NCBI GenBank assembly: GCA_021740845.1
Contig: JAIOYZ010000004.1
Location: forward strand, 1-54,141
Reading direction: 5' to 3'
Length of the DNA stretch: 54,141 nucleotides
DNA from: Bacteroidia bacterium
Lineage (GTDB): Bacteria; Bacteroidota; Bacteroidia; UKL13-3
Part shown: piece by piece, positions 29-40,932 of the stretch
Layout of the letters: every line of letters starts with the position of its first letter
How positions within the stretch are numbered: the first letter of the stretch is position 1
Program-made: the position numbers and the translations under genes
Notes under the pieces: generated by a model
Told to the model about the DNA's origin: nothing
Databases searched by the model: none
Seen by the model: only the letters and a program-made list of their open reading frames with translations

Positions 29-2092
29 TTATCTCCTTGGTGCTGGTCTTCCAGCTGGTGGCCTTGGAGTTCCTCTTTGTGGAGTTGGTGCCGGAGCAGC
101 TTCAATTGGTTTTGGTTTTTCCCAATAAATATCCAATACTTTAACAGTTGTTCTTCTGTTTAATTGGTGCTGAGCCTCTGTACATCTTAATCCTTGCTCT
201 CTTTCATTTGGTCCTTCACAAGCACACTCAGTTACCTCTAACATATTCTCACCATAACCTACAGATACCAAACGAGCCGAATCAACCCCATGTGTAATTA
301 AATAAGCAACAGCAGAATCAGCACGTCTTTGAGATAGGCCAATATTGTATAATGAATCTGCTCTACAATCCGTATGAGAACCTAACTCAATTTTTAAACT
401 TGGGTATTTGTTCAATACTACAATTAGTGAATCCAATACTTTAGCTGCATCTGGACGAATAGTTGCCTGGTCTAAATCGTAAAGAATACCGCGTAAGGTA
501 AATGTTTCTAATCCCAAAGATCCTAATTCAAAGTCTTGAACCAAATCAGTTGAAACTTCTAAACCAACAGTGGTTTTTTCTTCCGTTTTACTATCATAGA
601 ACATTTGGCGAGAAGCAAATAATTCGTAATCAGTTTTAGTTTTCAATACAAGTTTGTATGAACCTGCTTGATCAGTTTTTAGAACAAATTTACCAGTATC
701 ATTACTTGAAGTAATAGTAATGGTAGCGTTTGGCATCAAAGCTTTTGTTTTAGCATTACGCACTACACCACTTAATGTAAATACCAATGGTGTCATATGA
801 AAACGGTAAATATCATCTTGTCCTTTACCACCATCTCTATTGCTACTAAAATAACCGCTTTCTTTATCCTTATCTAAAATGATGGCAAAATCATCGCCAT
901 GCGAATTGATTGGCGATTTCATATTAATAGGCTCGCTCCAATCTGTTCCACTACCTGTGGTCATAAAAATATCTGTTCCACCTAAACCTACATGACCATT
1001 AGATGCAAAATATAAAGTTCCATCGTCATGTATGGAAGGGAAAACTTCGTCGTCTTCAGTATTCACAATTGGTCCTAAATTTACCGGATCACCCCAAGTT
1101 TTTCCACGTTTGCTATAGGTAACATACCAAATGTCTTTTCCTCCAAAACCACCAGGCATATCAGAACTAAAATACATAATTTGATCGTCCTTGGTAAGTG
1201 TTGGTTGGCCACAATTAAATGAGTCTGTACTAAAACCTATAGTAGTTGGGTCAGACCATTCGCTACCAGTTAAAGTTGAAACATAAATACGGCAGCTTTT
1301 TCCTTTTAAATTGTTGTCGTAGTTACAACGAGTAACATATGCAGTTCTAAACTTATTATCAAATGCAATTGCTCCATCATTCAATGGTCCGTTCAATTTG
1401 TTTTTATCAACTAAAACAGGCAATTGGTAAGTGATATTATCCTTGTTTTTTCTATCAACTTTATAGGTTGAGGTATACAAATCGGTATAGCTATTGCCTG
1501 TCCAGCCATACATTTTATTTCCACTTACACCTTTTTCTCTATCAGAGGTAAAATAGATTTGGTCTTTTTTGAAATATTGAGGAGCAAAATCCTCCCAACG
1601 AGTATTTAATCCCTTTACATTTTCAACAAGGTAACGAGTTTTGTCGTTTTTCCATTTCAAGGCATTTTCACAACCTTTAATTTGGCGTTCTACCATTTCA
1701 CCATTTTCAGGGGTCATTTTTTGGTAGACTTTAAACTCAACAATAGCCTCCTCAAATTTCTGATTGTTCTTTAAAGTTTTAGCTAAACGCAATTGATTAT
1801 CGGTATTTCCTTTGTCAATTTTAATTGCCTTGCGGTACCAATTTTCGGCATTCTTCATGTCGTTCATTAACCAATAGCACTCAGCAGCTTTGTTGGCTGA
1901 TTCTATTTTTTCTTGTTTGTTTTTGGTGCTAGAATACACCTTACGGTAATTGTCTCCAGAAATGAAATATTCTTTTTTCTGGAAAGCATCACGTGCAGCA
2001 ACTATGGATCCTTTTTTGGAGCCACAAGATGAAATAAATGCCATCATAGAAACACTTAACAGCAGGGAAAGCAAAAAGTATCTTTTATTCAT
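29..2092 (-). CDS. PorE-like outer-membrane lipoprotein (TPR, beta-propeller, CRD, OmpA)
   Basis: 687 aa. A lipoprotein signal ends at the lipobox ISSC (Cys at about 23). TPR helices follow (about 30-145), then WD40/PD40-type propeller repeats with FTSDR- and YFASNG-like blades (about 160-430), a carboxypeptidase-regulatory-like domain (about 440-525) and an OmpA-type peptidoglycan-binding domain (about 535-655) with the HTDCR...LSQRRA signature. The tail is rich in Pro and Ala. This domain order is that of PorE, the T9SS component that anchors the PorK/N ring to peptidoglycan. Bacteroidota carry several paralogs with the same order, so PorE itself is an inference. T9SS cargo is encoded at 14.7 and 20 kb. 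A TACGTTTG -7 box lies 20 bases before the ATG. Confidence 0.85.
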   Translation of the reverse strand: MNKRYFLLSLLLSVSMMAFISSCGSKKGSIVAARDAFQKKEYFISGDNYRKVYSSTKNKQEKIESANKAAECYWLMNDMKNAENWYRKAIKIDKGNTDNQLRLAKTLKNNQKFEEAIVEFKVYQKMTPENGEMVERQIKGCENALKWKNDKTRYLVENVKGLNTRWEDFAPQYFKKDQIYFTSDREKGVSGNKMYGWTGNSYTDLYTSTYKVDRKNKDNITYQLPVLVDKNKLNGPLNDGAIAFDNKFRTAYVTRCNYDNNLKGKSCRIYVSTLTGSEWSDPTTIGFSTDSFNCGQPTLTKDDQIMYFSSDMPGGFGGKDIWYVTYSKRGKTWGDPVNLGPIVNTEDDEVFPSIHDDGTLYFASNGHVGLGGTDIFMTTGSGTDWSEPINMKSPINSHGDDFAIILDKDKESGYFSSNRDGGKGQDDIYRFHMTPLVFTLSGVVRNAKTKALMPNATITITSSNDTGKFVLKTDQAGSYKLVLKTKTDYELFASRQMFYDSKTEEKTTVGLEVSTDLVQDFELGSLGLETFTLRGILYDLDQATIRPDAAKVLDSLIVVLNKYPSLKIELGSHTDCRADSLYNIGLSQRRADSAVAYLITHGVDSARLVSVGYGENMLEVTECACEGPNEREQGLRCTEAQHQLNRRTTVKVLDIYWEKPKPIEAAPAPTPQRGTPRPPAGRPAPRR

Positions 2093-2111
2093 GAATATAG
2101 GGTTTTCAGGT

Positions 2112-2119
2112 CAAACGTA
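2112..2119 (-). promoter_or_regulatory. Putative -7 box of the PorE-like gene
   Basis: The minus strand reads TACGTTTG, matching the Bacteroidota -7 consensus TAnnTTTG, with 19 bases between it and the ATG. No convincing -33 TTG was found at normal spacing. Confidence 0.4.
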
Positions 2120-2193
2120 TTTAATGCAAGTTTATTAAATTTTGCTATTTTACCGTTACAATTTATGAAAAAAACTGAAAATATTAATAAAAA

Positions 2194-2214
2194 GGCGACC
2201 GAAGTCGCCTTTTT
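2194..2214 (-). terminator. Intrinsic terminator after glnN
   Basis: A GGCGAC / GTCGCC stem with a cgaa loop is flanked by A and T runs on both sides. It lies just past the glnN stop and can work for minus-strand transcription. Confidence 0.7.
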
Positions 2215-2216
2215 AT

Positions 2217-29293: not shown

Positions 29294-29680
29294 CTATTTT
29301 TGTTTTGGCTTGTATAGGATCAAACCTAATAATACAAAAAATGCGATGATAGTTTTATATAAATTGGGCAGTTGTATAACCTTTAAATAGGCGTCGTTGG
29401 AGAAGTGAATGGTGGGCAGTAAAATCATTACTCCTGTAAGAAAAAATACAATAGCTATTGTTAAAAAGGATGCGCGTGTATATTGGTTCAAAACGATAGA
29501 TACAGAGCACACACTGATTATGGTTGCGACCAAAAGAACAAAATATTTTGCACCCCAAGGCAATGGAACAAATACGGCCATTACCCCATAATTCATAAAA
29601 TGAAAAATGCCCGAGGCCAAAAATAAAAGCCCTAAAACAATACGTGTTACCTTAAGTGTAATTTCGAGTTTAGACGACAT
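29294..29680 (-). CDS. DoxX-like membrane protein
   Basis: 128 aa with four predicted membrane helices (about 10-30, 44-65, 72-92, 108-124). The start TRIVLGLLFLASGIFHF is DoxX-like. Function is unknown; DoxX-type proteins have been linked to quinone-coupled oxidation. It starts six bases after the lipoprotein gene at 29687 and is the last gene of the respiratory-like operon. Confidence 0.7.
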   Translation of the reverse strand: MSSKLEITLKVTRIVLGLLFLASGIFHFMNYGVMAVFVPLPWGAKYFVLLVATIISVCSVSIVLNQYTRASFLTIAIVFFLTGVMILLPTIHFSNDAYLKVIQLPNLYKTIIAFFVLLGLILYKPKQK

Positions 29681-29686
29681 ACTTTC

Positions 29687-30742
29687 TTATTTTTTGATGC
29701 TGTAAGTATAAAAAGAAGAATCGGATGTGGCAAGATATGCAATAGAAATTATTGAATCTACTAGGGCTATTTGTTCCGTTTGGTTTTCATTTACATTAGA
29801 ATTTATGCTTTGCAATTCATCCTTTAAAATGCGATGATAGGCCATTTTTAAACCAGTTCCTTTAAAGAAATCTTTAGCTCGTTGTGCTTTATAGAGTGCT
29901 TGAGAATAACCCATTGGATAATTAAAAACATCTTCTTGGTAAAGTTCACTCAAAAGTAAAGTCACATAACGGCTATATCCAGGGCAAATCAATGCTCGTG
30001 CATCATCAGAATTTACAAGTTGAAGAAAGTCGAAATAGCTAGTGTCTAAAGGGACAAACTCTTGTCGGGTGCGTTTTTTCCAGAGGAAATAAATTTTGTC
30101 GTTTGCCCAATTAAAAAGCGTTTCCTTTTCAAAGAAATAAGCAAAATTGCTATCTAACTTTTGGCCTCTAAAATAGTTTTGGTAGAACTCAATTTGCTTG
30201 TCTTTTCTTTGATTAATATAAGTTGCGTAGGCAGGCGCCAACAAAAAATTACTGGTATTAAAATATTCTTTCTTGATGTTTGGTTCTCGGTAAAATGTAT
30301 CAGCAAAAATTTGCATAAACTGATTGTATCTTCCTGCCTCCGCATAAGAAGTAAGGGTCAAAGGCATTGTATTGCCTTCAAAATTCAATTGAATACTTTC
30401 ACCAGCTTCAACATAATAGTTTCTTGCAAATACAAATTCGGAGGTGCCTAAATCAAAGAAAGCGCCAGATTGAGAAGGTAAGATTGTAAATTCAAAAGCG
30501 CCATCCTGTTTGATATTACAGGAATCTACCACCCTTTTTTCGCCAAAAAACAGACCCAAGGAGTCTGTAAATTGGTAAAGATAAATAGTTTTTGTTCGAC
30601 TAAAATTAGGGTCTATTTTACCTTTGATAGTAACAGAAAGGGAAGAGTTTTTTGAATAATTAGAACAAGAAGTACTCCATAAAAAAAACATAAAAAGGAA
30701 TACTTGAATTACTAATTTATTACTTCCTAAAACTCTTCCCAT
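29687..30742 (-). CDS. Lipoprotein of unknown function (DUF4369-like N-terminus)
   Basis: 351 aa. A hydrophobic signal ends at lipobox STSC (Cys at about 26). Residues about 34-135 look like the beta-rich DUF4369 domain found at the N-terminus of many Bacteroidota thiol-disulfide lipoproteins, but there is no thioredoxin domain or CxxC afterwards; the rest is helical and unrecognised. It sits 11 bases behind the cytochrome gene at 30754 in the same operon. A role in assembly of the neighbouring complex is a guess. Confidence 0.6.
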   Translation of the reverse strand: MGRVLGSNKLVIQVFLFMFFLWSTSCSNYSKNSSLSVTIKGKIDPNFSRTKTIYLYQFTDSLGLFFGEKRVVDSCNIKQDGAFEFTILPSQSGAFFDLGTSEFVFARNYYVEAGESIQLNFEGNTMPLTLTSYAEAGRYNQFMQIFADTFYREPNIKKEYFNTSNFLLAPAYATYINQRKDKQIEFYQNYFRGQKLDSNFAYFFEKETLFNWANDKIYFLWKKRTRQEFVPLDTSYFDFLQLVNSDDARALICPGYSRYVTLLLSELYQEDVFNYPMGYSQALYKAQRAKDFFKGTGLKMAYHRILKDELQSINSNVNENQTEQIALVDSIISIAYLATSDSSFYTYSIKK

Positions 30743-30753
30743 TTAAGATTAGA

Positions 30754-31164
30754 TTATAAAGAACGGATATAGTTAATCACCTTCCATCTTTCAGAATCGC
30801 TTAGTTTTTCTTTGTATGAAGGCATTGGTTTTCTACCTTCAGTGGTTTTCCAATACAATTCACCATCACTTACTTTTTTAGAATCTGCCGAAGTGAAGTC
30901 GCCACAAGAGATGTCAATTTTATCTGCCTTAGCTCCATCACCTTTTCCTTTGGCTCCATGACAAGATTTGCAATGTTGTGCATACAATTCTTTTCCTTCC
31001 TTTATTGAACTTTCATTTGCAGGTACGGGATTTTTCTTTTTAACAGCAGCTTCAGGTGCAGCCCAAGGTTTACCTGCTGGTTTTTGTGCAATAGCAGAAT
31101 GGCTTATGAATAGGCCTGCGCCTAAAAAGAATAAGCCAAGAACTAGTTTTTTTAAGTTTTTCAT
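30754..31164 (-). CDS. Periplasmic mono-heme cytochrome c
   Basis: 136 aa. A signal peptide ends at AIA-Q. One c-heme site CKSCH (Cys65, Cys68, His69) with the probable axial Met114 in RKPMPSY. It is a close paralog of the divergent gene at 39015: both share CHG..GKGDG, a GD(F/L)T block, YWK...GR..MPS and YIR(S/D)L. It lies downstream of the NrfD and membrane-protein genes and is a likely electron acceptor for them. Confidence 0.87.
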   Translation of the reverse strand: MKNLKKLVLGLFFLGAGLFISHSAIAQKPAGKPWAAPEAAVKKKNPVPANESSIKEGKELYAQHCKSCHGAKGKGDGAKADKIDISCGDFTSADSKKVSDGELYWKTTEGRKPMPSYKEKLSDSERWKVINYIRSL

Positions 31165-31191
31165 AAAATTTAATGTTTGAGTTTGTTTTTT

Positions 31192-31734
31192 TTATACTGT
31201 TTTCAGTTTTTTCAACTTAAATACTTGAAGCAAAACATAAGCCAAAGTGCCCCAAATGCCTGCTATTATAGAAATAGAAGCAATAATAAAATAGATAGGC
31301 GCCTTATCTCTTCCACCTGCAAGTGAACGACCACTATTATCTAATTTGGAAAGGTCTTTTGGTGTTCCAATTTTGGCTTCAGTCTTTTCTTCAAAACTTC
31401 CATAGTTTTCATCGTCTTCTACCTTAGCCAAAACTATCAATTTACCATCATCATTCAAAGGTAAATTATCAGGAAATTCAAAAGTTGCAATTCCATTTTC
31501 TTCGGTTGCTACTTCTGTTTTAATAGGAAGTAGTCCAAATAACCTCTCCACATATAGAGATACAGATACTTCGGCTACTGGCTTGTCTTCGGAGCTTACC
31601 AATACATTGCACACATTTTTTTCATCCACTTTGTCGAATGAAATGCTCATGCTGGCTTCTTTTTCTTGAGCACTTACTAAAAGACCCAAAGAAAATAGGA
31701 AGCAAAATGAAATAAGATATTTAATATTTTTCAT
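31192..31734 (-). CDS. Exported single-span membrane protein of the NrfD operon
   Basis: 180 aa. A cleavable signal ends near VSA-Q. A beta-rich periplasmic part (about 25-140) is followed by one C-terminal membrane helix (about 148-171) and a short basic tail. I do not recognise a family. It is tightly placed between nrfD-like (8 bases) and cytochrome c (27 bases) genes, so it is probably a structural or assembly partner of that complex. Confidence 0.65.
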   Translation of the reverse strand: MKNIKYLISFCFLFSLGLLVSAQEKEASMSISFDKVDEKNVCNVLVSSEDKPVAEVSVSLYVERLFGLLPIKTEVATEENGIATFEFPDNLPLNDDGKLIVLAKVEDDENYGSFEEKTEAKIGTPKDLSKLDNSGRSLAGGRDKAPIYFIIASISIIAGIWGTLAYVLLQVFKLKKLKTV

Positions 31735-31742
31735 CTCGATGC

Positions 31743-33119
31743 TTATTTATAGTTTATGATTTCATCTTTACCTTCCAACTTGCCTTCTGCTACCTCCCAA
31801 ACGGAAATAATAGGGAAGAATCTAGAAAATAAGGTGACAATTAGTAAAGTGGCGGCAAAGGTTGCTGCTACAATAGTCATTTCAATTAAACTTGGTGTGT
31901 AATGTCTCCAAGATTCAGGTACATCTTGAATAGGCAAATAAGGGTGAGCCAAACCAGGTATAACTATTAAATAACGTTTGAACCAAGCTGCAATTACAAC
32001 ACCAACAGCAATAACTGTTAATGGCAATGGCTTACGTAATTTTGGAATTAAAGGAAGCGTTGCTGGGATAACCATTCCAAACAAAACTACCATCCAATAA
32101 AATAGAGCTTCATCTCCAACAAATAAATTCAATAAGTGGTTGGCATGCAATCCACTCATTTTATAAGCTGGTACCAAATATTCGTTGATATTAAAATAGA
32201 TGTAAATAAACGACATCATTACCAAGGCCATTCCTAATTTATCGAAATGCATTTCAGTTAGATATTTTTCTAGGTTGTAGGCTTTTCTTATTACAAAAAT
32301 AGCAACTACCATCCCTGCAACACCTAATAAAAATGCTCCAGAAACAAAGTATGCTCCAAAGTTAGTACTATCCCATTCTGCTCTCAATGTGGTTGCAAAT
32401 AACCACGCAGTTACAGTATGTATAGCAACTCCCAAAGGAATAACCATAATGGTTAATATCTTAATGCTTCTTTTTAAACTCTTCCATTGTGCTTCGGTAC
32501 CTTCCCATCCAAATGATAACAACTCATACATTTTCATTTGCCATTTTGGTTTGCCTGTTAAATGGTTTTTCAAGGTAGCCATAGATGGAATCATTGGAAT
32601 AAATAGTAGGATCAAACTTGTAGTTACATAAGTAAGAATTACAATAATATCCCAAACAATTGGCGATTGAATTCTACCATAAACCACCAAATGCCACAAG
32701 CGTTCTGGTCTTCCCATAGCAGCAACTATACTTACACCTGCAAGCATAATAGCTCCCACGGCAATAACTTCTGCTATTCTAGATAAAGGTCTATACCATT
32801 CAAAATTAGTAAGCTTCAATACTGCCGACATCAATACGCCAATTAAGCTAAGAGCTACAAAGAACACAAAGTTGGAGATGTAAACTCCCCACATGGTATA
32901 ATCTCTTAAGGAAACAGTAACGTATTTACTTTTGGTTTCTTGGATGTAATATGCATAAACACCCAATAAGCAAACAGTAACTAAAAAGCCAATCCAAACT
33001 TTACCCCATAAACCAATTTTTTCTAGAGGCTTGAGTAGGTCTCTTTTCATTTCCATATACTCTTCCTGTGTGAAGGTTTCGTATGTGGTTTTTTCGGAAT
33101 TTTTTATTTTTTCTTCCAT
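31743..33119 (-). CDS. NrfD/PsrC-family quinone-interacting membrane protein
   Basis: 458 aa with about nine to ten membrane helices. Residues from about 75 match the NrfD/PsrC family (polysulfide reductase membrane subunit): SNFVFFVALSLIGVLMSAVL, GRPERLWHLVVYGR, SPIVWDI, GIDLHTVTAW-like AIHTVTAWLF. It exchanges electrons between quinone and the 4Fe-4S protein encoded 18 bases upstream. The about 45-residue N-terminal cytoplasmic extension has no homology I recognise. No catalytic molybdopterin partner is nearby. Confidence 0.88.
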   Translation of the reverse strand: MEEKIKNSEKTTYETFTQEEYMEMKRDLLKPLEKIGLWGKVWIGFLVTVCLLGVYAYYIQETKSKYVTVSLRDYTMWGVYISNFVFFVALSLIGVLMSAVLKLTNFEWYRPLSRIAEVIAVGAIMLAGVSIVAAMGRPERLWHLVVYGRIQSPIVWDIIVILTYVTTSLILLFIPMIPSMATLKNHLTGKPKWQMKMYELLSFGWEGTEAQWKSLKRSIKILTIMVIPLGVAIHTVTAWLFATTLRAEWDSTNFGAYFVSGAFLLGVAGMVVAIFVIRKAYNLEKYLTEMHFDKLGMALVMMSFIYIYFNINEYLVPAYKMSGLHANHLLNLFVGDEALFYWMVVLFGMVIPATLPLIPKLRKPLPLTVIAVGVVIAAWFKRYLIVIPGLAHPYLPIQDVPESWRHYTPSLIEMTIVAATFAATLLIVTLFSRFFPIISVWEVAEGKLEGKDEIINYK

Positions 33120-33137
33120 GTTATTATTCCTTCACAA

Positions 33138-34067
33138 TTATTCTTGTTGATTAAAAACTTCAGTTGCATCTTCAAATGGGAAGTTCCTTTCTACAGGTGG
33201 TAAATAATAAACACGAGGTTTGGTTCCTAATTCTTCAAATTGACGGTATCCTGCACGTTTAGTTAGTAACTCGCTTAATCTAAATGTTTCTTCTCCATTG
33301 GTAACAGCATCTTCTAATTCATCTCCAAAGAAAATTGTACCATTAGGACATTCAGTTACGCAACTTGGTAATATACCTTTTGAAGAACTTTCAGGACAAA
33401 AATCACATTTAGAAACAGTTCCTTCTTGAGAAGATTTAGTGGTACAACATTTATCAGCATCATGTGCATGTTCTTCGCTAAATGCTTGTTGTTCTGGTCG
33501 GCCAAAATTAAAAGTACGAGCAGAATAAGGGCAGGCAGCCATACAGAATTTACATCCAATACAACGGTCGCTATCAATTCCAACAATGCCATCGCTTCTT
33601 TTAAAAGTTGCATCTACAGGACAAACCTTGGTACAAGGAGGATTATCACACTGGTAGCAGGTTTGAGGGAACCAATAAGGTGCTGCCAATTCCGAATCTT
33701 GCATTTTCTTTACCTTAATGTATTCAATTGGAGGTAACATTCCATGCATGCTTTGGCATCCTTCAACACACTTTCTTGCATTGGCACATCTGGCCAAGTC
33801 AATTACCATAATAAATTTCTTACCTGGTATTCCTTCCCTTACATTAAACTGAGAAAGCTTTTCTTCCGAAGGATGTGCAACCAAACTGCTATCAACTTCT
33901 ACAACTTTTCCATCAACCGTTAATACCTTAACCTTTTCGCCAGTTTCCTCTTTAGCATTAGCAAACAAGGTGTTTTTTACTCCCAAGCCTGTGAGTGTGG
34001 CCGTTCCAGCCAACAATCCTAGTTTTAGGAAATTCCGCCTATTGGAATCTTCTTTTTCATTTTTCAT
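33138..34067 (-). CDS. Tat-exported 4Fe-4S ferredoxin subunit
   Basis: 309 aa. A twin-arginine signal SNRRNFLKLGLLAG (Arg10-11) sends it folded to the periplasm. Four cysteine groups suggest four [4Fe-4S] clusters as in NrfC/PhsB/DmsB: CANARKCVEGC, CYQCDNPPCTKVCP, CIGCKFCMAACP and CDFC...CVTECP. An acidic insert with DADKCC between groups is unusual. It pairs with the NrfD-like protein downstream and would pass electrons to or from a periplasmic partner. Confidence 0.92.
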   Translation of the reverse strand: MKNEKEDSNRRNFLKLGLLAGTATLTGLGVKNTLFANAKEETGEKVKVLTVDGKVVEVDSSLVAHPSEEKLSQFNVREGIPGKKFIMVIDLARCANARKCVEGCQSMHGMLPPIEYIKVKKMQDSELAAPYWFPQTCYQCDNPPCTKVCPVDATFKRSDGIVGIDSDRCIGCKFCMAACPYSARTFNFGRPEQQAFSEEHAHDADKCCTTKSSQEGTVSKCDFCPESSSKGILPSCVTECPNGTIFFGDELEDAVTNGEETFRLSELLTKRAGYRQFEELGTKPRVYYLPPVERNFPFEDATEVFNQQE

Positions 34068-34099
34068 ACTCGTATTCTTTTTGAGTTTGATTCAATAAT

Positions 34100-34996
34100 T
34101 TATTCGCCCAATCCAAATTGACGAGTAATATTGAAGCCAATTAAATATCCTGGAACCCCTAAGTTTTTAAAATCATTGTGGTTAAAATATTTAGCTTCTT
34201 GATCCAAAATGCCATTTGAATTACACACAAATATTTGGAATTGGTGATACCCAGTAGAGAATTCTAATCCTAAGCCCAAATTAGGCATTGGTCTGATTGC
34301 TTCGGCTATATTTGAAACATTTAAAGGATGATCATATTCTACCATAAATGAACCTTGTGGGCTAAATTTATATCGTGCAACTGCAGAAACGCCATAAAAA
34401 TCATGGTGCTCATATAAAGTTGCAGAATCAACCATATTGTAATGTGCGTAATGAACGCCTACCTGACCAGAAAATTTACTATTGAATTTTCTTCCAACCA
34501 TTAATTCTCCAAAGTACGACATACGATGGGCGAACTTATAGGTATTATCTTGGTTCATGATACTTGTTTTTTCGCCACCTTTTATTGCAGCATTACCTGC
34601 AAAAGTTACAGATACTGGCATGCCACTAGTTTTTTGTTGAAGTAATTTGTACTTCATACTAAAATCATACAATTGTTTGTTTTTAGTGGCTGCTGCACCA
34701 ACAGATAGTTTCTTGGTTACGCCATATCCAAAGAACAATCTAATATTTGATGGAGCATAAATTCCATACAAATCACTTGCTTTATCAATTAATCCAAATC
34801 TGTGTTGGATATTAAAATCAATATAGCCTTTGTCCACTGTTTGAACAGTTTGGTTGTTAATGGCCAATCCGTTTTCAAATGTTGCCTTAACAATTTCTGG
34901 AGCCATTGGTTCTTCTGGAGCATCTTGAGCCATTACACTCAGTGGTATCCACATGATAAGAAGCCAGATAAGATTTTTTATATTATTCGTTTTCAT
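34100..34996 (-). CDS. DUF5777 beta-barrel protein
   Basis: 298 aa. A signal peptide ends near VMA-Q. Alternating aromatic/hydrophobic strands throughout, ending in NITRQFGLGE, look like an outer-membrane beta-barrel. The pattern KGYIDFNIQHRFGLID...LYGIYAPSNIRLFFGYGVT matches what I recall of the DUF5777 family in Bacteroidota, which often sits near c-type cytochromes. Function is unknown. It is inside the respiratory-like operon, so it may be a conduit or scaffold for the lipoprotein cytochromes. Confidence 0.75.
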   Translation of the reverse strand: MKTNNIKNLIWLLIMWIPLSVMAQDAPEEPMAPEIVKATFENGLAINNQTVQTVDKGYIDFNIQHRFGLIDKASDLYGIYAPSNIRLFFGYGVTKKLSVGAAATKNKQLYDFSMKYKLLQQKTSGMPVSVTFAGNAAIKGGEKTSIMNQDNTYKFAHRMSYFGELMVGRKFNSKFSGQVGVHYAHYNMVDSATLYEHHDFYGVSAVARYKFSPQGSFMVEYDHPLNVSNIAEAIRPMPNLGLGLEFSTGYHQFQIFVCNSNGILDQEAKYFNHNDFKNLGVPGYLIGFNITRQFGLGE

Positions 34997-35014
34997 TGAA
35001 TTTAAGTTTACTTG

Positions 35015-35419
35015 TTAATTGTTTTTAGAACCTTGTTTGATCCAAAGGGCAATTGCATCAATTTTTCCCTGCGATAATTTCCCATCTGGTGGCATGGGTT
35101 TACTAGTGCCTATAATTCGTTTGTATAATAAACTATTTTCAGGTATGGTGTCTGGAGAATCAGCATCCACATATCCCAACATAGTTATTTGGTCGTAAGA
35201 TTTATCAGCTGTTAAGGTAGGAGGAGGACCACCAGTTTCATGGCAGCCAGAACCTAAACAGCTTGAAGTAAAAATTGGGTTTATACTAGCACTATAACTA
35301 ATAGGAACACTTGGGTCAATTACAATAGAGTTGTCTGTAGTAGAATAATATTCTTTCTCACATGAAACCCATAGGATTGTTCCAAATAGTAGAACTAGGA
35401 GTTTATATGTATTTTTCAT
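35015..35419 (-). CDS. Lipoprotein with a CX4CH heme-like motif
   Basis: 134 aa. Lipobox WVSC (Cys20). The sequence INPIFTSSCLGSGCH is placed as in small cytochrome c lipoproteins, but the motif is CX4CH (Cys54, Cys59, His60) rather than CxxCH. A possible axial Met is in GTSKPMPPDG, and the C-terminus (KIDAIALWIKQGS) is typical of cytochrome c. Only two bases separate it from the heme lipoprotein gene upstream. Confidence 0.75.
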   Translation of the reverse strand: MKNTYKLLVLLFGTILWVSCEKEYYSTTDNSIVIDPSVPISYSASINPIFTSSCLGSGCHETGGPPPTLTADKSYDQITMLGYVDADSPDTIPENSLLYKRIIGTSKPMPPDGKLSQGKIDAIALWIKQGSKNN

Positions 35420-35421
35420 AA

Positions 35422-36798
35422 TTATTTAAATGATAAGGTTTCTTTGGCTGAGCCAATGTGATTTTTACCATCGTTGTCCATTAGGGCAATACCAAATACG
35501 TAATCCTTTTTGGTGGTCAATACAAACTGTACATCATCTGGGTTGTTTGTTTGTAATTTACGTTTTATTAAAATTTGGTATTTTTGATGTTTGTTAGTAC
35601 TAGAACTGGTAGCATTTGAAACTTGTATTGGTGTTACATTGCTAATTACAGTAATATCTGCAGAACTTGTACCTGGAGTTGGAGGAACCAAATAATAGCC
35701 TGGAGCTCCAGAAATGCCTCTCAAAAATGTTACAATATCATCCCTTTGCCAAGAACTCAATGGTCCCCAATATCCTGCCATATCCCCAACATCATCCATG
35801 GCTGCTTTGTATGCTTCCCTAGATTTTTTGTTTGATCCTACGCCATTAACTCCACCTGCTTCAGCGCCTTGTCCATTGTGTCCATGGCATGATTCGCAAT
35901 TGGCATTGTAAATGGTTTCCCCACTTTTGGCATCGCCAATCATTGGTGTTTTGTTAAGTAAGAAGTATGTTGGATCTAAAAGTGCAGTAGAACCATTTGG
36001 TAAGGTTATCGTTTGATCTGTTCCATCCCATTCATATTTAGCAGCGTCTCTATCTGTTGTTCCTACAGAGTTTCTTGCCATCATTGCACCACCAGCATCT
36101 GTTGAAAATCCACTTGGTTTTGCAACCATATCGTGCATATATCCTAACGGATTAGAAGTTGCTAAACTCCAATTCCAATAATCAACAGAACCACTTGTTG
36201 GGGTCATTACTGCTGTATTTCCTGTTCCATGACAACTAGCTTGGCAACCAACGGTAGCAAATGCTCCTTTTGCTCCACTTGCACCATCAATATCAAATGC
36301 AAAAGATAGCTTATCGCTATTTCTTTGGGAAGTCCATTCGCCAGTATTTTCACCTGGTTTCAGTGGGTCGCCGCTGCCATTAAACAATAATGTATGATCC
36401 GACACATCAACTGTGGTATCATTCCATTCTGCCAATATATATAAGTATTCAGCATCATATGCTGCTTTTAATGTTAATCTAGGGTCTTTTCCTTTGCTAA
36501 AGCCAGTTAGTCCTGCAAAGGTTCCTGTTAGGTTCAAACCGCCATCTCCATATAACAACCCAGTACTCATATCTGTTGAAGTAATTGGTAAAAAATCTGC
36601 AGTTTTCCAATAGGCTGAATTAATGGTATTAGGAGCTGTTGAAACTTTAATAGCTTCCAATTTAGTGGTAGGTTCTGATACTGGTGGTGGTGCCTTGGGT
36701 GGTAAAGTATACGTATACTCCTTTTCACATCCACCAACCAAAATCAGTATGAGTCCGATTAATAAGAATCGGGAATTAAATATTTTAGTTGTTTTCAT
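35422..36798 (-). CDS. Ethylbenzene-dehydrogenase-type heme lipoprotein with a cytochrome c domain
   Basis: 458 aa. Lipobox VGGC (Cys24). Residues about 45-280 look like the EB_dh heme-b-binding domain of DMSO-reductase-family gamma subunits (SAYWKTADFLPI, YLYILAEWNDTT, SDKLSFAFDID), with a CQASCH site (CX3CH, 185-190) inside. A cytochrome c domain follows (about 288-362) with CESCH (301-305) and WQRDDIVTFLRG. A beta-rich tail (about 378-458) closes it, possibly the end of the EB_dh fold, so the cytochrome may be inserted in it. It opens a nine-gene unit reaching 29294, and a long hairpin lies in its leader. One GGTTTGAACC motif (36531) is inside. Confidence 0.82.
   Translation of the reverse strand: MKTTKIFNSRFLLIGLILILVGGCEKEYTYTLPPKAPPPVSEPTTKLEAIKVSTAPNTINSAYWKTADFLPITSTDMSTGLLYGDGGLNLTGTFAGLTGFSKGKDPRLTLKAAYDAEYLYILAEWNDTTVDVSDHTLLFNGSGDPLKPGENTGEWTSQRNSDKLSFAFDIDGASGAKGAFATVGCQASCHGTGNTAVMTPTSGSVDYWNWSLATSNPLGYMHDMVAKPSGFSTDAGGAMMARNSVGTTDRDAAKYEWDGTDQTITLPNGSTALLDPTYFLLNKTPMIGDAKSGETIYNANCESCHGHNGQGAEAGGVNGVGSNKKSREAYKAAMDDVGDMAGYWGPLSSWQRDDIVTFLRGISGAPGYYLVPPTPGTSSADITVISNVTPIQVSNATSSSTNKHQKYQILIKRKLQTNNPDDVQFVLTTKKDYVFGIALMDNDGKNHIGSAKETLSFK
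36531..36540 (-). repeat. GGTTTGAACC motif, copy 16
   Basis: Exact copy in the heme lipoprotein gene; the only exact copy between 27.5 and 41 kb. Confidence 0.8.
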
Positions 36799-36826
36799 TT
36801 TGTTTAGGTTTAAATGAAGATTGAAT

Positions 36827-36887
36827 AGGACAAAAAATAAAAGGATTATTAATGATTGAGTTTGTCATTCCTTGTATTTTTTGTCCT
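36827..36887. promoter_or_regulatory. 61-nt hairpin upstream of the heme lipoprotein operon
   Basis: Perfect 13-bp arms AGGACAAAAAATA (36827-36839) and TATTTTTTGTCCT (36875-36887) enclose a second helix (AAGGA/TCCTT, then AATGA/TCATT) with a 9-base loop. No T run follows on the minus strand, so it is not a plain terminator. It starts 29 bases before the ATG at 36798. Confidence 0.55.
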
Positions 36888-36894
36888 TTGATTA

Positions 36895-36930
36895 AAAGAA
36901 AAGACTGAGTGATTTGCACCACTCAGTCTT
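36895..36930 (-). terminator. Terminator after the 36938 lipoprotein gene
   Basis: An 11-bp perfect stem (AAGACTGAGTG / CACTCAGTCTT) with an 8-base loop, followed on the minus strand by cttttctttt. It separates two transcription units. Confidence 0.75.
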
Positions 36931-36937
36931 GTTGTAA

Positions 36938-37345
36938 TTATTTACAAATAAAGTCCAAGGTAATAGGGTTTACTGTGTTTTTAACATTAACAGTATAACC
37001 ATTAGTAGCATATGTATAACCCCATGCATCTTGATACTCAGCTGCAATATAGTAATCACCCACAGCTAGGCCTTTTACGGCAAAGTTGCCTACAGAATCT
37101 GCTTGCCAAAATTGAGTGAAAGTTTTTGTAGTTAAATCGTTTGAAATTTTAATGGTAGCAAAGGGTGCTGCTACAGGTGAAGTGCTAGTACCATAATCTA
37201 TATACTTAACAGAACCTTGTACCATAACCTGACCGCCGGTAGAAGTTACTGGAATATCGTATTTTACAGTTTCTTCTTTAGTGCAGGCACTGAAAGTAAA
37301 TAAACCTACTGTTAATGATGCTAAAATATATTTTAAAGTTTTCAT
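36938..37345 (-). CDS. Lipoprotein with carboxypeptidase-regulatory-like domain
   Basis: 135 aa. Lipobox FSAC (Cys21). The remaining about 110 residues form one beta-sandwich of the carboxypeptidase-regulatory/transthyretin-like type (VQGSVKYIDYG...ATIKISND...VGNFAVKGLAVGDYYIAAEY). Function is unknown. It lies 43 bases behind the YceI-like gene and ends in a terminator, so those two form a separate unit. Confidence 0.65.
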   Translation of the reverse strand: MKTLKYILASLTVGLFTFSACTKEETVKYDIPVTSTGGQVMVQGSVKYIDYGTSTSPVAAPFATIKISNDLTTKTFTQFWQADSVGNFAVKGLAVGDYYIAAEYQDAWGYTYATNGYTVNVKNTVNPITLDFICK

Positions 37346-37388
37346 ACTTGTGTATTATTAATGATTATAATTTTTTTTGATAAATAGA

Positions 37389-38420
37389 TTACTGTTTTTT
37401 AGAGAATACCATGTTTGCCTGAATAAACATATCATCTCCTACTGAACCAGACCAAGTGCCATAAGTTTTGTTACTTGCAAAAGCAGCATCTGCGTTTGCT
37501 TTTTCAGCAGCAGTAGGGTTTTTTAAGTATAATTTAGATGCAGTTTTATCCATATGGTCAGAACGTTTGAAATTAAACGATGCTGTAAATCCACATCTTA
37601 ATGTGCCCAATGCTCCTCCAGATCCAGGAGTATATTGTTGGCCATTATAAGTAACATAAACAGTAACTGGTTTAGTTATAGGGTCACCATCATTTTTACC
37701 AGCTTCATTATGTAAATATCTGTTGAAAGTGAAATTACAAGTTACAGTATATCCATTTCCTTGTTGTTTCCATGTTCCTGGTACAGCTTCTAACCATGCA
37801 GTATCTGAGGTTGGGTCAACAACTTGTCTTGTAGAATCCATCCACTGTGTACCCATATAGTTTTGTCCGCACTGAATGTACTGATCTCTACCAGGTTCGC
37901 TTGTGTTTAATGTAGAAACTAATACATAAGCTTTAAAGTAGTTTTTGCTTAAATCATTTGCATTAAATCTAAAGTAAGCTGGTGGGCTTTGTGTATTTGG
38001 TCCTGCTGCCCAATTTTGAGTTGCTGGATATTTAGGATTTGCATTGTAGTTTAATAAAGGTACACCCTTTGCTGGTGCACCATGTACGCCTCCCAATTTA
38101 TTTGGTAATACCGGGAAATCAGGTACAAAATGGAATTCTCCAAAACGGCCAGTTAACCAAGTATCTGAGAAATCATAATAACGAGATTTCCAATTTACAT
38201 TACTATGTGATTTTTCATGTCCGAAAGTTGTATCTAAAACGAAGTCCACCGGTACTGGTAAGTCTGCATTTGGATTAAATACATTTTCAGTAAGTGATTC
38301 TACAACATAATTTGGCTCAACCTTAGTATCAGTTTTACAAGCTTGCCATAAAGTTGCCATTCCAAATGCTAACGCGAAGACTAAGATTAATCTGCGGTGA
38401 TTCATAATTTTTGATTTCAT
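37389..38420 (-). CDS. YceI-like lipoprotein
   Basis: 343 aa from ATG 38420; the longer frame from a TTG at 38465 is not supported. Lipobox WQAC (Cys at about 28) follows a charged start (MKSKIMNHRRLIL). The C-terminal about 130 residues (ITKPVTVYVTYNG...LRCGFTASFNFKRSDH...VGDDMFIQANMVFSKK) look like the second half of a YceI lipocalin-like domain, a family that binds isoprenoid lipids such as quinones. The N-terminal half is unrecognised. Quinone-type binding would fit its neighbours, but that is inference. Confidence 0.6.
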   Translation of the reverse strand: MKSKIMNHRRLILVFALAFGMATLWQACKTDTKVEPNYVVESLTENVFNPNADLPVPVDFVLDTTFGHEKSHSNVNWKSRYYDFSDTWLTGRFGEFHFVPDFPVLPNKLGGVHGAPAKGVPLLNYNANPKYPATQNWAAGPNTQSPPAYFRFNANDLSKNYFKAYVLVSTLNTSEPGRDQYIQCGQNYMGTQWMDSTRQVVDPTSDTAWLEAVPGTWKQQGNGYTVTCNFTFNRYLHNEAGKNDGDPITKPVTVYVTYNGQQYTPGSGGALGTLRCGFTASFNFKRSDHMDKTASKLYLKNPTAAEKANADAAFASNKTYGTWSGSVGDDMFIQANMVFSKKQ

Positions 38421-39014
38421 GTTCTTTAATTTATTGGTTAAAAATTTTGTGATTTTTTTTTGCAATTGTGATTTCGATCGTTAGAAATTTCAATTGCATT
38501 TGTTTGTTTGTTTTTATTTGTTTTAGTGAATAATTACGATGGCAAATATTGGGGCAGATGGCTTACACAAAAATGACAGACATCAGAAAGACGAGTGATA
38601 GATTTCACTTTATTAGTTGATAAAAGTCAGTTTGTTTTTAGTGTGAATTCAGCGGATTGTGCAAAAATCTAATTGCGATGGTTCCCAAAATCCTTGGTTT
38701 TTTTAGTGGTTCAAGGATTTTGCTAAAATCAAGTACTTTGGATTTTTTTAGGCCAAATATCCTTGTTACCCTAAAAATGTTCTCAGAAATGTAAAAGGAT
38801 GGATCTTATAGATTTTATTTTTCTTGAATATATGTAGCTTAATAAAAGGAATATTTTCCATTTGCCAGGCATAAATGTTACATAATAAAATATCTAATAG
38901 CACCCGCTTAACCATCAGCTTCTTAAAACAAAAGTCATTAATAAAGTTAACTTAAATCATTCTTTAAGATATAGATATTAAGAAGTTTTGCCTCCTCGAG
39001 TTTATGGTATTACA
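38421..39014. other. 594-bp divergent regulatory gap
   Basis: No gene supported. It separates the minus-strand lipoprotein/NrfD genes from the plus-strand cytochrome/porin genes. It holds an 11-bp inverted repeat at 38686-38722 (CAAAATCCTTG / CAAGGATTTTG, 15-base loop) and related pieces nearby (TTGGATTTTTTTAG at about 38737, CCAAATATCCTTG at about 38753). No clear -7/-33 pair was found. Confidence 0.5.
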
Positions 39015-39470
39015 ATGGAGTTTAAGTTAATCAAATCAGTTTCTATTAGTATAGGTGTACTTTTCTTTTTTGGTTTTGCCCCTATTAAGCAAATTAATAA
39101 ACCTCGACCTTGGATAGCTCCAAGTTATACCGATTCATTAATAAATCCCTTTCAATCCAATGCCGAACTCCTCCAAAAAGGAAAATCTCTATACCATGCT
39201 CATTGTATAGTTTGTCATGGTGTTATGGGAAAGGGAGATGGGGATTCTGGTTTTGGTTTAGAAATGGAGCCTGGCGATTTAACCGGTAAATCTTCCTCAG
39301 AAGAAAAAGATGGGGCAATTTATTGGAAAATTGAAACTGGCCGATCTTCAATGCCTAGTTTTTCCGACCGTCTTTCCTCAAATCAAATTTGGTATTTAGT
39401 GTTATACATTCGGGATCTTCAGGCAAATAACCTTGTTCCCAAGAAACAGAAAAAAGAAAAATCTCATTAA
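39015..39470 (+). CDS. Mono-heme cytochrome c, paralog of the 30754 gene
   Basis: 151 aa from ATG 39015; a TTG at 38988 would add nine residues and is less likely. An N-terminal hydrophobic segment (about 7-24) is a signal or anchor. One c-heme site CIVCH (Cys64, Cys67, His68) with probable axial Met113 in GRSSMPSF. The Lys-rich C-terminus (KKQKKEKSH) differs from its paralog at 30754. It leads a three-gene plus-strand unit with a porin-like gene and a second cytochrome, spaced by 11 bases each. Confidence 0.85.
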   Translation: MEFKLIKSVSISIGVLFFFGFAPIKQINKPRPWIAPSYTDSLINPFQSNAELLQKGKSLYHAHCIVCHGVMGKGDGDSGFGLEMEPGDLTGKSSSEEKDGAIYWKIETGRSSMPSFSDRLSSNQIWYLVLYIRDLQANNLVPKKQKKEKSH

Positions 39471-39481
39471 TTCATTTAACC

Positions 39482-40651
39482 ATGAAGACAAAAAATATAC
39501 TTGCAACTTTCCTTACTTTTTCCAGTCTCTCCCTCAATTTAGCCTTTGCTCAAGAGGATAATCCTAAGCCTTTCGAAAAAACAAGCTTATCAGGAGTTAC
39601 TAAAAACGTTATTATAGGATACGCTTATTCAGATTTTATGATATCTCCCAAAAGTGATGTTAAAACTAATTTTACTAGAGTTGGTTTTAGCCCAACAATG
39701 ATTTGGAAACTTGGAGAGAAATTATTCTTCGAAAGTCAGGTGGAATTTTACACAGATAGTGGTGATTTAAACACACAAGTTGAATATGCTAAATTATCTT
39801 TTATTGTAAATAAATACATGACTGTTGGTATGGGGAAAATGTTAACCCCATTTGGTTTGTATACAGAAAGAATTGAAGCTCCTTTTATCGAGAAATTACC
39901 TAATTCTCCTCTTGGCTTTAAGCATGTAGAAGGTTCGCCTAATATTGGTCCTATTTGCCCTGAAATGGGTTTTGATGTTCGCGGTGGATTTCAAATTGGT
40001 AATGGTAAAATGAATTATGTTTTATATGTAGCTAATGGTGCAGAATTAAATGAGGGTTTGCTTGAACCGAAATTGGCTGGTGCTTTAGAATATGAAAACT
40101 TCTTCGATAATAATTCTAAGAAATCATTCGGCGGTAGAATTGGTATTTTGCCTCTTTCTAATTCTTCTTTAGAAATTGGAGGTTCTTGGTGCATTGGTGA
40201 AGTTGGTAAAGCCAAATCTTCTTACGAACATCTAAATTCAAAAGCTTATTCCTTCGATGTTACTTACCATAAAACACTTAGAAACATCAAATCAATGGTA
40301 GATTTCAAGGCGCAAATTAATTACCTTTTAGTAGACAAAGCTACCTATATAAACGAGGAAGGAGATCCTTATTCCTTCGAAAATAAAAGTGATATTTATT
40401 ACCTAAGATTATCCATTAGACCTGCACTTGTTAAGAATCCTTATTTAAGAAGAACAGAATTTTTAGCTAGATACAATGTGGCTAATTTAGCAAAGGATGC
40501 CCTTTGGGGAGGGGAGTATATTCGTTTAGATTTAGGTGTTTCTTATTGGCTCAGTTTAAGAACTGGGATACGCTTAGCATACGAAGTTGGCGAATTGGTA
40601 GGTGGCAAAGAATCAAATGCAATTTTGGTAAGATTTGTAACAGGATTTTAA
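39482..40651 (+). CDS. Porin-like outer-membrane beta-barrel
   Basis: 389 aa. A signal peptide ends near AFA-Q. The rest shows amphipathic strands and ends in aromatic F (LVRFVTGF), as outer-membrane barrels do. Features such as KLSFIVNKYMTVGMGKMLTPFGLYTERI resemble phosphate-selective/OprP-type porins of Bacteroidota. It lies between two cytochrome genes, so a role in an outer-membrane electron or substrate conduit is possible but not shown. Confidence 0.72.
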   Translation: MKTKNILATFLTFSSLSLNLAFAQEDNPKPFEKTSLSGVTKNVIIGYAYSDFMISPKSDVKTNFTRVGFSPTMIWKLGEKLFFESQVEFYTDSGDLNTQVEYAKLSFIVNKYMTVGMGKMLTPFGLYTERIEAPFIEKLPNSPLGFKHVEGSPNIGPICPEMGFDVRGGFQIGNGKMNYVLYVANGAELNEGLLEPKLAGALEYENFFDNNSKKSFGGRIGILPLSNSSLEIGGSWCIGEVGKAKSSYEHLNSKAYSFDVTYHKTLRNIKSMVDFKAQINYLLVDKATYINEEGDPYSFENKSDIYYLRLSIRPALVKNPYLRRTEFLARYNVANLAKDALWGGEYIRLDLGVSYWLSLRTGIRLAYEVGELVGGKESNAILVRFVTGF

Positions 40652-40662
40652 AAGAAGTACCG

Positions 40663-40932
40663 ATGAAAAAGAATATATATTTTGGACTATTACTTATTTT
40701 AGGCTTTATCGCTTTTGTATCATTGCCTTCTTGTAAAACTTCATTGGAAGTAAGAGAAAAATCGGGCTCAGTTCTTTGGAGTGAAAACTGCTCAAGGTGC
40801 CATTATTCGCCAGATCCAGAGGATTATAATGATGCTCAATGGGAGGTTATCGTACTACATATGAGAGTTCGTTCTTCCCTAACCGAAGAAGAAGCAGAAA
40901 AAATCACTAAGTTTTTGCAGGACTCAAATTAA
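40663..40932 (+). CDS. Small cytochrome c lipoprotein
   Basis: 89 aa from ATG 40663, 11 bases past the porin stop; a longer open frame upstream overlaps the porin gene and is not used. Lipobox LPSC (Cys24) and one c-heme site CSRCH (Cys43, Cys46, His47). The C-terminal helix (LTEEEAEKITKFLQD) is cytochrome-like. It is much shorter than usual cytochrome c and probably outer-membrane anchored. Confidence 0.8.
   Translation: MKKNIYFGLLLILGFIAFVSLPSCKTSLEVREKSGSVLWSENCSRCHYSPDPEDYNDAQWEVIVLHMRVRSSLTEEEAEKITKFLQDSN

Follow-up and report, generated by a model that had tools for sequence, protein, structure and literature searches.

A stretch of 54,141 nucleotides from a Bacteroidia bacterium (GenBank assembly GCA_021740845.1, contig JAIOYZ010000004.1, positions 1 to 54,141; hereafter the window) carries, between positions 29,294 and 40,932, a respiratory-like set of genes. 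At its centre are encoded an iron-sulfur (Fe-S) protein exported by the twin-arginine translocation (Tat) pathway (FER), an NrfD-type quinol protein (NrfD), a protein with a periplasmic domain and one C-terminal membrane span (SPAN) and a periplasmic monohaem cytochrome c (cytA). As judged from sequence comparisons, the FER-NrfD-SPAN-cytA set is a real module, since the recurrence of its order in many genomes argues against chance. It probably represents a molybdenum (Mo)-free menaquinol:cytochrome c oxidoreductase that operates with exchangeable outer-membrane haem proteins as a low-oxygen branch. The minus-strand genes are transcribed in the order YceI-like, reg135, EB_dh (ethylbenzene-dehydrogenase haem-subunit domain), cytB, DUF5777, FER, NrfD, SPAN, cytA, tpr351 and DoxX-like, and the divergent plus-strand set comprises cytC, porin389 and cytD, in this order (Table 1). 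A preliminary description of this DNA had recognised a ferredoxin, an NrfD protein, a single-span protein, cytochromes and barrels in two divergent sets, and all the listed genes are indeed open reading frames located as it had placed them.

For comparison, 20 loci were taken first by their similarity to NrfD (best segment 65% to 89% identical, all records named Bacteroidota, among them L017 of Flavobacterium franklandianum LB3P56), 26 further stretches, two of them overlapping earlier loci, were added, and the genes were then clustered. L063 and L064, which partly repeat L020 and L019, were left out of the haem-motif, lipobox, gene-order and distance-matrix counts and kept in the clustering, run and multihaem counts, and the ActC of L082 was excluded from the gene-order and distance-matrix counts. 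The pairs L015/L021 and L018/L022 are contigs of one metagenome-assembled genome each, and one gene may count twice there. Where no family scan is cited, genes of other genomes were named by eye.

The core is present in the first 20 loci as far as their contigs reach, with variable flanking genes. Among 51 NrfD instances in 45 loci, FER immediately precedes NrfD in all the 48 that are not cut off, and SPAN immediately follows it in 44 of the 45 usable ones, the exception being L086; the order of the window is thus shared by other Bacteroidota, where the preliminary description had proposed to look for it. Within 8 kb of NrfD, a cytochrome of the cytA/cytC type was found in 39 of the 51 instances, DUF5777 in 31, cytB in 30, EB_dh in 18, a YceI-like gene in 16, a Crp/Fnr gene in 11, Reeler-like and porin389 genes in six each and cytD in one, the divergent set of the window itself sitting at or beyond this distance. 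FER, NrfD, SPAN, cytA, porin389 and cytD form a single same-strand run in L085, and porin389 accompanies the module in L084 and L086, where it stands in a same-strand run with FER-NrfD; on these grounds the divergent set is considered to belong with the module, as had been proposed. The pairwise distance matrices of NrfD, FER and SPAN are correlated with r 0.79-0.85 over 43 triplets and those of NrfD and DUF5777 with r 0.55 over 28, values that are inflated by the relatedness of the species.

An alignment search for NrfD in 247 genomes of the class returned 30 places in 22 genomes at 315 bits or more, the next best match (201 bits) being of the ActC type, and SPAN was found in the same 22 genomes. 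G143 and G204, which belong to the same genus, lack this NrfD, and the distribution of the module is therefore patchy. G118 holds three FER-NrfD-SPAN sets. A search across the phylum matched NrfD at an E-value of at most 1e-80 in eight of 296 genomes, of which two fall outside the class. EB_dh was also detected in 22 of the 247 class genomes, namely in 14 of the 22 module genomes and eight of the 225 others (Fisher p 3e-12), and this link persists when pooled within eight genera (p 3e-4); in several module genomes the EB_dh gene lies away from the module.

The preliminary description had taken FER for a Tat-exported four-cluster ferredoxin. The Tat motif is present, but in the first cluster motif (CANARKCVEGC) the second Cys is replaced by Ala. 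The pattern C-x5-C-x3-C-x3-H occurs in 47 of 49 FER relatives, 42 of these 47 lacking the second Cys, and with this residue missing the first site is predicted to hold a 3Fe-4S cluster or to be differently ligated. One 3Fe-4S site is also contained in alternative complex III (ACIII; PMC8076601, excerpt); the incomplete Fe-S motif in the ActB of the window's own genome is, however, a different motif from that of FER. The best NCBIfam match of FER is DsrO (163 bits, cut-off 200), with QrcC also among its family matches (96 bits, under its cut-off), and the sole match of NrfD is DsrP (104 bits, cut-off 350). NrfD shows nine hydrophobic spans in a simple scan, and all four of its relatives among solved structures are ACIII-type subunits (best E 7e-43, 6btm_C). 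The Ser reported as strictly conserved in quinone-reactive members (PMC8076601, excerpt) is S152 in the window NrfD and is invariant. The periplasmic domain of SPAN appears Ig-like by weak matches (bMG3, intimin), intimin being the best among solved structures at E 0.009. Two of 45 SPAN proteins, those of L079 and L080, carry a fused cytochrome c domain at the N-terminal end, and this fusion links SPAN to a cytochrome. The window cytA is related to the structures of cytochrome c552 and ActE.

We infer the following path for the electrons. NrfD would oxidise quinol, presumably menaquinol, at the periplasmic face, and the Fe-S clusters of FER would carry the electrons from NrfD. SPAN, anchored beside NrfD, may dock cytA for its reduction, and cytA would hand over to the outer-membrane haem lipoproteins (cytB, the EB_dh protein and cytD), of which the DUF5777 and porin389 barrels would be partners. 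The module would most likely serve as a low-oxygen branch alongside the organism's ACIII. The path suggested earlier, from quinol over Fe-S clusters and a periplasmic cytochrome to outer-membrane lipoproteins, thus stays plausible up to its last element, a barrel acting as conduit, which finds no support.

The preliminary description had recorded no catalytic subunit, and none was recognised by eye among the open reading frames of the window. It had also raised the possibility of a Mo enzyme elsewhere in the genome. The organism's own genome (100% complete) has a single PF00384 match, a protein of 915 amino acids without a Tat signal and with a NuoF-like neighbour gene, which reads as a soluble NAD-type formate dehydrogenase; multihaem catalysts such as NrfA and MccA were not searched genome-wide. 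The same genome encodes two NrfD proteins, one in the window module and the other in a six-gene ACIII cluster. PF00384 (E 0.001) was unmatched in four of the 22 module genomes, G068, G118, G127 and G176 (91%, 100%, 99% and 100% complete, respectively), which indicates, at the level of gene content, that a Mo partner is not required by the module. For L004-L023, 18 of the genomes were searched, and every one gave a PF00384 match. The PF00384 proteins examined comprise five soluble formate-dehydrogenase types and one nitrate-reductase-like protein (L024, L058, L059, L062), the others being judged by length only. In two related genomes (L060, L061) the match is a Psr-like enzyme accompanied by Fe-S and membrane genes of its own. 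On the PF00384 results from the own, the 18 related and the 247 class genomes, a catalytic Mo subunit elsewhere was rejected as the general partner. Formate dehydrogenase, the set being picked by length and score among the PF00384 matches listed, is present in eight of the 22 module genomes and 32 of the 225 others (p 0.013; pooled within-genus odds ratio 20, p 0.006). It was set aside as the linked enzyme, its association being weaker overall than that of EB_dh or NorB, though positive within genera, and the organism's own enzyme being of the soluble NAD type.

Several observations weigh against a Mo-free oxidoreductase working with outer-membrane haem proteins. DUF5777 is absent within 8 kb from 20 and cytB from 21 of the 51 NrfD instances, some of which lie at contig ends, and DUF5777 occurs in 220 of the 247 class genomes and is hence not specific to the module. 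Two of the 14 EB_dh matches in module genomes (G077 and G086) measure about 300 amino acids against 458 in the window, the distance correlations carry the inflation noted above, and His139 and Asp253 of the ActC quinone site are not kept in NrfD (by eye, against PMC8076601, excerpt). Genes for Mo-cofactor synthesis lie next to the module in L017, L019 and L020, the outer-membrane set of G025 (cytB, DUF5777, EB_dh, YceI and Reeler-like) adjoins a Tat-exported Mo enzyme that has an Fe-S protein of its own (L093), and seven of 47 loci encode, in the fetched stretch, proteins with at least four CXXCH motifs, the one in L082 being ActA-like. The cofactor genes and the G025 enzyme, together with the PF00384 matches in all the 18 genomes (two of them Psr-like) and the co-variation of formate dehydrogenase within genera, speak for a real partner, Mo-containing or multihaem, encoded outside the locus. 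Such a partner is nevertheless very improbable, within a search that covered Mo enzymes genome-wide but not multihaem catalysts: of the PF00384 proteins examined, five are soluble formate-dehydrogenase types and one is nitrate-reductase-like, the remainder having been judged by length, and G118, complete and with three FER-NrfD-SPAN sets, has no PF00384 match.

The outer-membrane haem proteins appear to be exchangeable. Five cytochrome-type proteins with one or two haem motifs each (cytA, cytB, the EB_dh protein, cytC and cytD) are encoded in the window, in agreement with the earlier estimate of up to five, and three of them look like lipoproteins, as had been proposed, EB_dh by a lipobox search and cytB and cytD by eye. 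The EB_dh domain and its two haem motifs, CQASCH (CX3CH, residue 185) and CESCH (residue 301, in an inserted cytochrome c domain), had not been named in the preliminary description. In the EB_dh cluster CX3CH is found in all 16 proteins and the CXXCH of the insert in 10, and haem attached within the EB_dh domain thus looks like the constant part. In the cytB cluster, CX4CH is carried by 23 of 30 proteins and CXXCH by five. The AlphaFold model of EB_dh was unusable (pLDDT, the predicted local distance difference test, 42.8), and its alignment with solved structures gave, among the matches listed, cytochrome c proteins over the insert and no EB_dh-fold chain. L017 and L087 have multihaem lipoproteins where EB_dh would stand, and L068 and L070 have haem-motif proteins there, with a sorting domain of the type IX secretion system (T9SS) scoring above cut-off.

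Of the two barrels proposed earlier, DUF5777 has a clear Pfam match, while porin389, without a family match in the Pfam and NCBIfam scans, is barrel-like by appearance only. DUF5777 was modelled, at modest confidence (pLDDT 59), as a 12-strand barrel with porins, FapF, NanC and KdgM among its Foldseek matches; its sequence gave no match to solved structures. The modelled barrel probably lacks the width for an MtrAB-like conduit, and its 12 strands count against an MtrAB-like wire. The barrel had been thought to conduct electrons, a role disfavoured by this model, by the wide occurrence of DUF5777 and by cytochromes of one or two motifs. A second DUF5777 copy of the organism lies on contig C8 (L089, 7647-12188). 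Its neighbours are a protein of YceI type, cytB-like lipoproteins with CX4CH, a two-component regulator and two proteins having a pair of CXXCH motifs each; given the occurrence of DUF5777 in most genomes of the class, this copy may hold a more ancient role.

Surface lipoproteins of C. canimorsus carry the optimal export signal C-X-K-(D/E)2-X (PMC5080379, excerpt). This published pattern is complete in reg135, with C-x-K-E-E in eight of eight relatives. The full C-X-K-(D/E)2 was seen in none of 14 EB_dh and none of 25 cytB lipobox calls, two of the latter being actually the haem motif, and the partial C-x-K-(D/E) in eight and 12 of these, respectively, against four of 43 other lipoproteins. 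The excess of the partial signal, the T9SS sorting domains beside the module in L068 and L070, and the multihaem genes near it in seven of 47 loci, including lipoproteins (L017, L087) and a ten-motif protein (L064), would suit an extracellular electron transfer that ends in a surface EB_dh or Reeler-like haem protein and delivers to metals, humics or another solid acceptor. This alternative is somewhat unlikely, as neither the window nor 40 of the 47 loci encode a multihaem protein, the one in L082 is ActA-like, DUF5777 models with 12 strands and the full export signal is missing from EB_dh and cytB. Unlikely, too, is a surface respiration of Bacteroidota in which a four-part Mo-free quinol oxidase (FER-NrfD-SPAN-cytA, with its atypical Fe-S site) feeds interchangeable surface haem proteins, either flipped lipoproteins or T9SS-exported, and reaches extracellular acceptors, in the form seen in the window, without a multihaem conduit.

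Further haem proteins were observed around the module in individual loci. The surroundings in L087 (181-12844) are dense in haem genes and include a six-motif lipoprotein, a seven-motif membrane protein, cytochrome b561-like and Rieske-like proteins and a cytochrome b of 910 amino acids fused to eleven CXXCH motifs. In L065 (12152-16221) the module is followed downstream by a gene for haem synthesis (glutamyl-tRNA-reductase-like), by an NHL-repeat-like protein and by a secreted haem protein with eleven motifs. L064 encodes a ten-CXXCH protein (2072-3052) about 5.6 kb from its first FER, along with two tandem FER-NrfD-SPAN sets and moaA. A secreted protein of 940 amino acids follows the Reeler-like gene in L070 (14866-17688), with a CX4CH-type motif near the N-terminus and long repeats.

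Clues to the conditions of use come from regulators and from nitric oxide (NO) reductase genes. Crp/Fnr genes occur in 15 copies in the fetched stretches of 10 of 45 loci, nine copies having an Fnr-like four-Cys motif; the region between the divergent sets of the window (38424-39020) contains no Fnr/Crp box (three palindromes, at most one mismatch) and no TTG-N8-CAA. A NorB-like protein is encoded in 14 of the 22 module genomes and 39 of the 225 others (Fisher p 8e-6), with a pooled odds ratio of 6.8 (p 0.002) within eight genera; genus g10 runs in the opposite direction (none of two module genomes, three of five others). In L075, NorC-NorB-like genes are found about 3 kb away from SPAN on its downstream side; in L095, whose genome lacks the module, they follow EB_dh-cytB-DUF5777 at a distance of about 1 kb. 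The organism's own genome encodes a NorC-NorB-like pair on a contig other than that of the window, and also what appear to be an A-type and a cbb3 oxidase (by eye and similarity). Use of the module under low oxygen or nitrogen-oxide conditions would fit these findings, which stop short of proving it.

It is possible, though not probable, that the module mainly feeds periplasmic nitrogen-oxide reduction, with cytA delivering to a cytochrome c NO reductase or to soluble N-oxide reductases and the lipoproteins being accessory. The NorB enrichment, overall and within genera, and the proximity of NorC-NorB-like genes in L075 and L095, with a further pair in the own genome, favour this explanation, but eight of the 22 module genomes are without a NorB match, genus g10 is reversed, and the outer-membrane lipoproteins and secreted haem-motif proteins would be left unexplained. 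The flow might also be reversed, the outer-membrane haem proteins oxidising an external donor and the module reducing quinone or feeding oxidases through cytA. NrfD complexes such as Qrc do reduce quinone (PMC13059093, excerpt), and nothing in the sequences fixes the direction; however, Fnr-type regulators and the NorB link suggest an acceptor branch, and the reversal is quite improbable. Quinol oxidation through FER, NrfD and SPAN to cytA and on to the outer-membrane lipoproteins is accordingly the preferred reading.

The principle of such a branch is known, since Mo-free NrfCD complexes are already in print: they can pass electrons to multihaem cytochromes, and Mros1571-1572 of Melioribacter roseus were proposed to deliver quinol electrons to cytochromes of the periplasm, with an Fe(III) reductase in the outer membrane as a possible further recipient (PMC3534657, excerpt). 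The novelty claimed earlier for the window is reduced to that extent. The window module likewise has NrfC-like and NrfD-like proteins and no Mo subunit, and quinol-to-cytochrome transfer is predicted for it. Compared by description only, the M. roseus system shares this pair, while its excerpted description includes no SPAN-like subunit or monohaem cytochrome (PMC3534657). NrfD clusters of other phyla, some without a Mo protein, lie near nitrogen or porin-cytochrome genes (PMC10732223, excerpt); their sequences were not compared. Relative to the known Mo-free NrfCD complexes, three features appear to be new: SPAN as a subunit, the change in the first Fe-S motif, and an EB_dh lipoprotein whose haem-attachment motif is conserved. 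No description of SPAN, the window gene set or DUF5777 was found in the open-licence literature.

ACIII shares with the module an NrfD closest to its own subunits and an ActE-related cytA, and a quinol:cytochrome c function would be common to both, whereas the window has no multihaem ActA, large ActB, ActD or ActF beside NrfD. The organism's ACIII cluster is separate, on contig C65, with six-haem ActA-like, ActB, C, D, E and F-like genes. In G118 (L082, 5496-17772), only a few kb separate the module from the first genes of an ACIII cluster (ActA-like with six motifs, ActB-like and ActC-like), which is encoded on the other strand. QrcABCD shares the QrcC/QrcD-like core; it runs toward quinone reduction (PMC13059093, excerpt), and the window lacks a multihaem protein. 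DsrMKJOP includes DsrM, DsrK and the trihaem DsrJ, none of which was recognised in the window, and its DsrO and DsrP are the top NCBIfam matches of FER and NrfD, both under the curated cut-offs (163/200 and 104/350). Complex iron-sulfur molybdoenzymes (Psr, Phs, Ttr, Dms) differ in the Mo catalytic subunit, which was not recognised beside the Fe-S protein and NrfD of the window, and no multihaem NrfA of the NrfABCD type is present among window open reading frames of at least 100 amino acids, PF02335 not having been searched in the genome; none of these frames carries two CXXCH motifs. MtrCAB and other porin-cytochrome conduits have a barrel and outer-membrane cytochrome lipoproteins in common with the window, which has one- or two-motif haem proteins and a 12-strand DUF5777 model in place of a multihaem cytochrome in a wide barrel; MtrB is a barrel of 26 strands, and MtrA carries ten haems. 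The EB_dh protein shares its Pfam domain (PF09459, DMSO reductase type II haem b) with the EB_dh gamma subunits, from which it differs as a lipoprotein with CX3CH and an optional cytochrome c insert, and it scores 18.4 bits against the cut-off of 169.85 for the type II haem b subunit (TIGR03477).

Table 1. Features of the gene set in order of transcription, minus strand first (window positions)
Feature	Position	Strand	Evidence and remarks
YceI-like putative lipoprotein, 343 aa (amino acids)	37389..38420	-	first minus-strand gene; ATG at 38420; cluster in 15 loci
reg135, small lipoprotein	36938..37345	-	CTKEE following the lipobox Cys
Terminator-like hairpin	36901..36930	-	13 pairs, T-rich tail; between reg135 and EB_dh gene; pattern match only
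EB_dh-domain lipoprotein, 458 aa	35422..36798	-	Pfam EB_dh (PF09459) 69.9 bits, above the gathering score of 33.3; lipobox found
cytB, putative lipoprotein cytochrome	35015..35419	-	CLGSGCH (CX4CH site); lipoprotein by eye
DUF5777 outer-membrane barrel	34100..34996	-	Pfam 243.5 bits; modelled with 12 strands
FER, Tat-exported iron-sulfur protein	33138..34067	-	RRNF at residue 10; first motif C-x5-C-x3-C-x3-H
NrfD-type quinol protein	31743..33119	-	Pfam NrfD 91.7 bits
SPAN	31192..31734	-	N-terminal hydrophobic stretch, periplasmic domain, one C-terminal span
cytA, periplasmic monohaem cytochrome c	30754..31164	-	CKSCH; Pfam 54.4 bits
tpr351, putative lipoprotein	29687..30742	-	cluster in 10 loci
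DoxX-like membrane protein	29294..29680	-	20.5 bits, under the 23.6 cut-off; cluster in 7 loci
cytC, monohaem cytochrome c	39015..39470	+	CIVCH; clusters with cytA
porin389	39482..40651	+	unclassified; barrel-like by appearance only
cytD, 89-aa putative lipoprotein	40663..40932	+	CSRCH; lipoprotein by eye

Among the remaining features, the YceI-like lipoprotein had been so named in the preliminary description, and its Pfam match of 22.3 bits falls under the cut-off of 23.7. The hairpin separates the YceI-like and reg135 genes from the rest of the minus-strand set; in the whole stretch 13 terminator-like sites were found by the pattern search against 7.9 expected. No family match was obtained for tpr351 in the Pfam and NCBIfam scans. 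An OmpA-like protein with PD40-type repeats was noted by eye at the start of the window (29..2092).

Bacteroidota are often seen as aerobic degraders of polymers. A quinol:cytochrome branch that is patchy yet conserved, varies in its presence together with an NO-reductase gene and includes outer-membrane haem proteins would help explain how some of them cope with the loss of oxygen, and SPAN provides a clean marker gene for finding the module. If the haem proteins are located at the surface, the module would represent electron export without multihaem wires.

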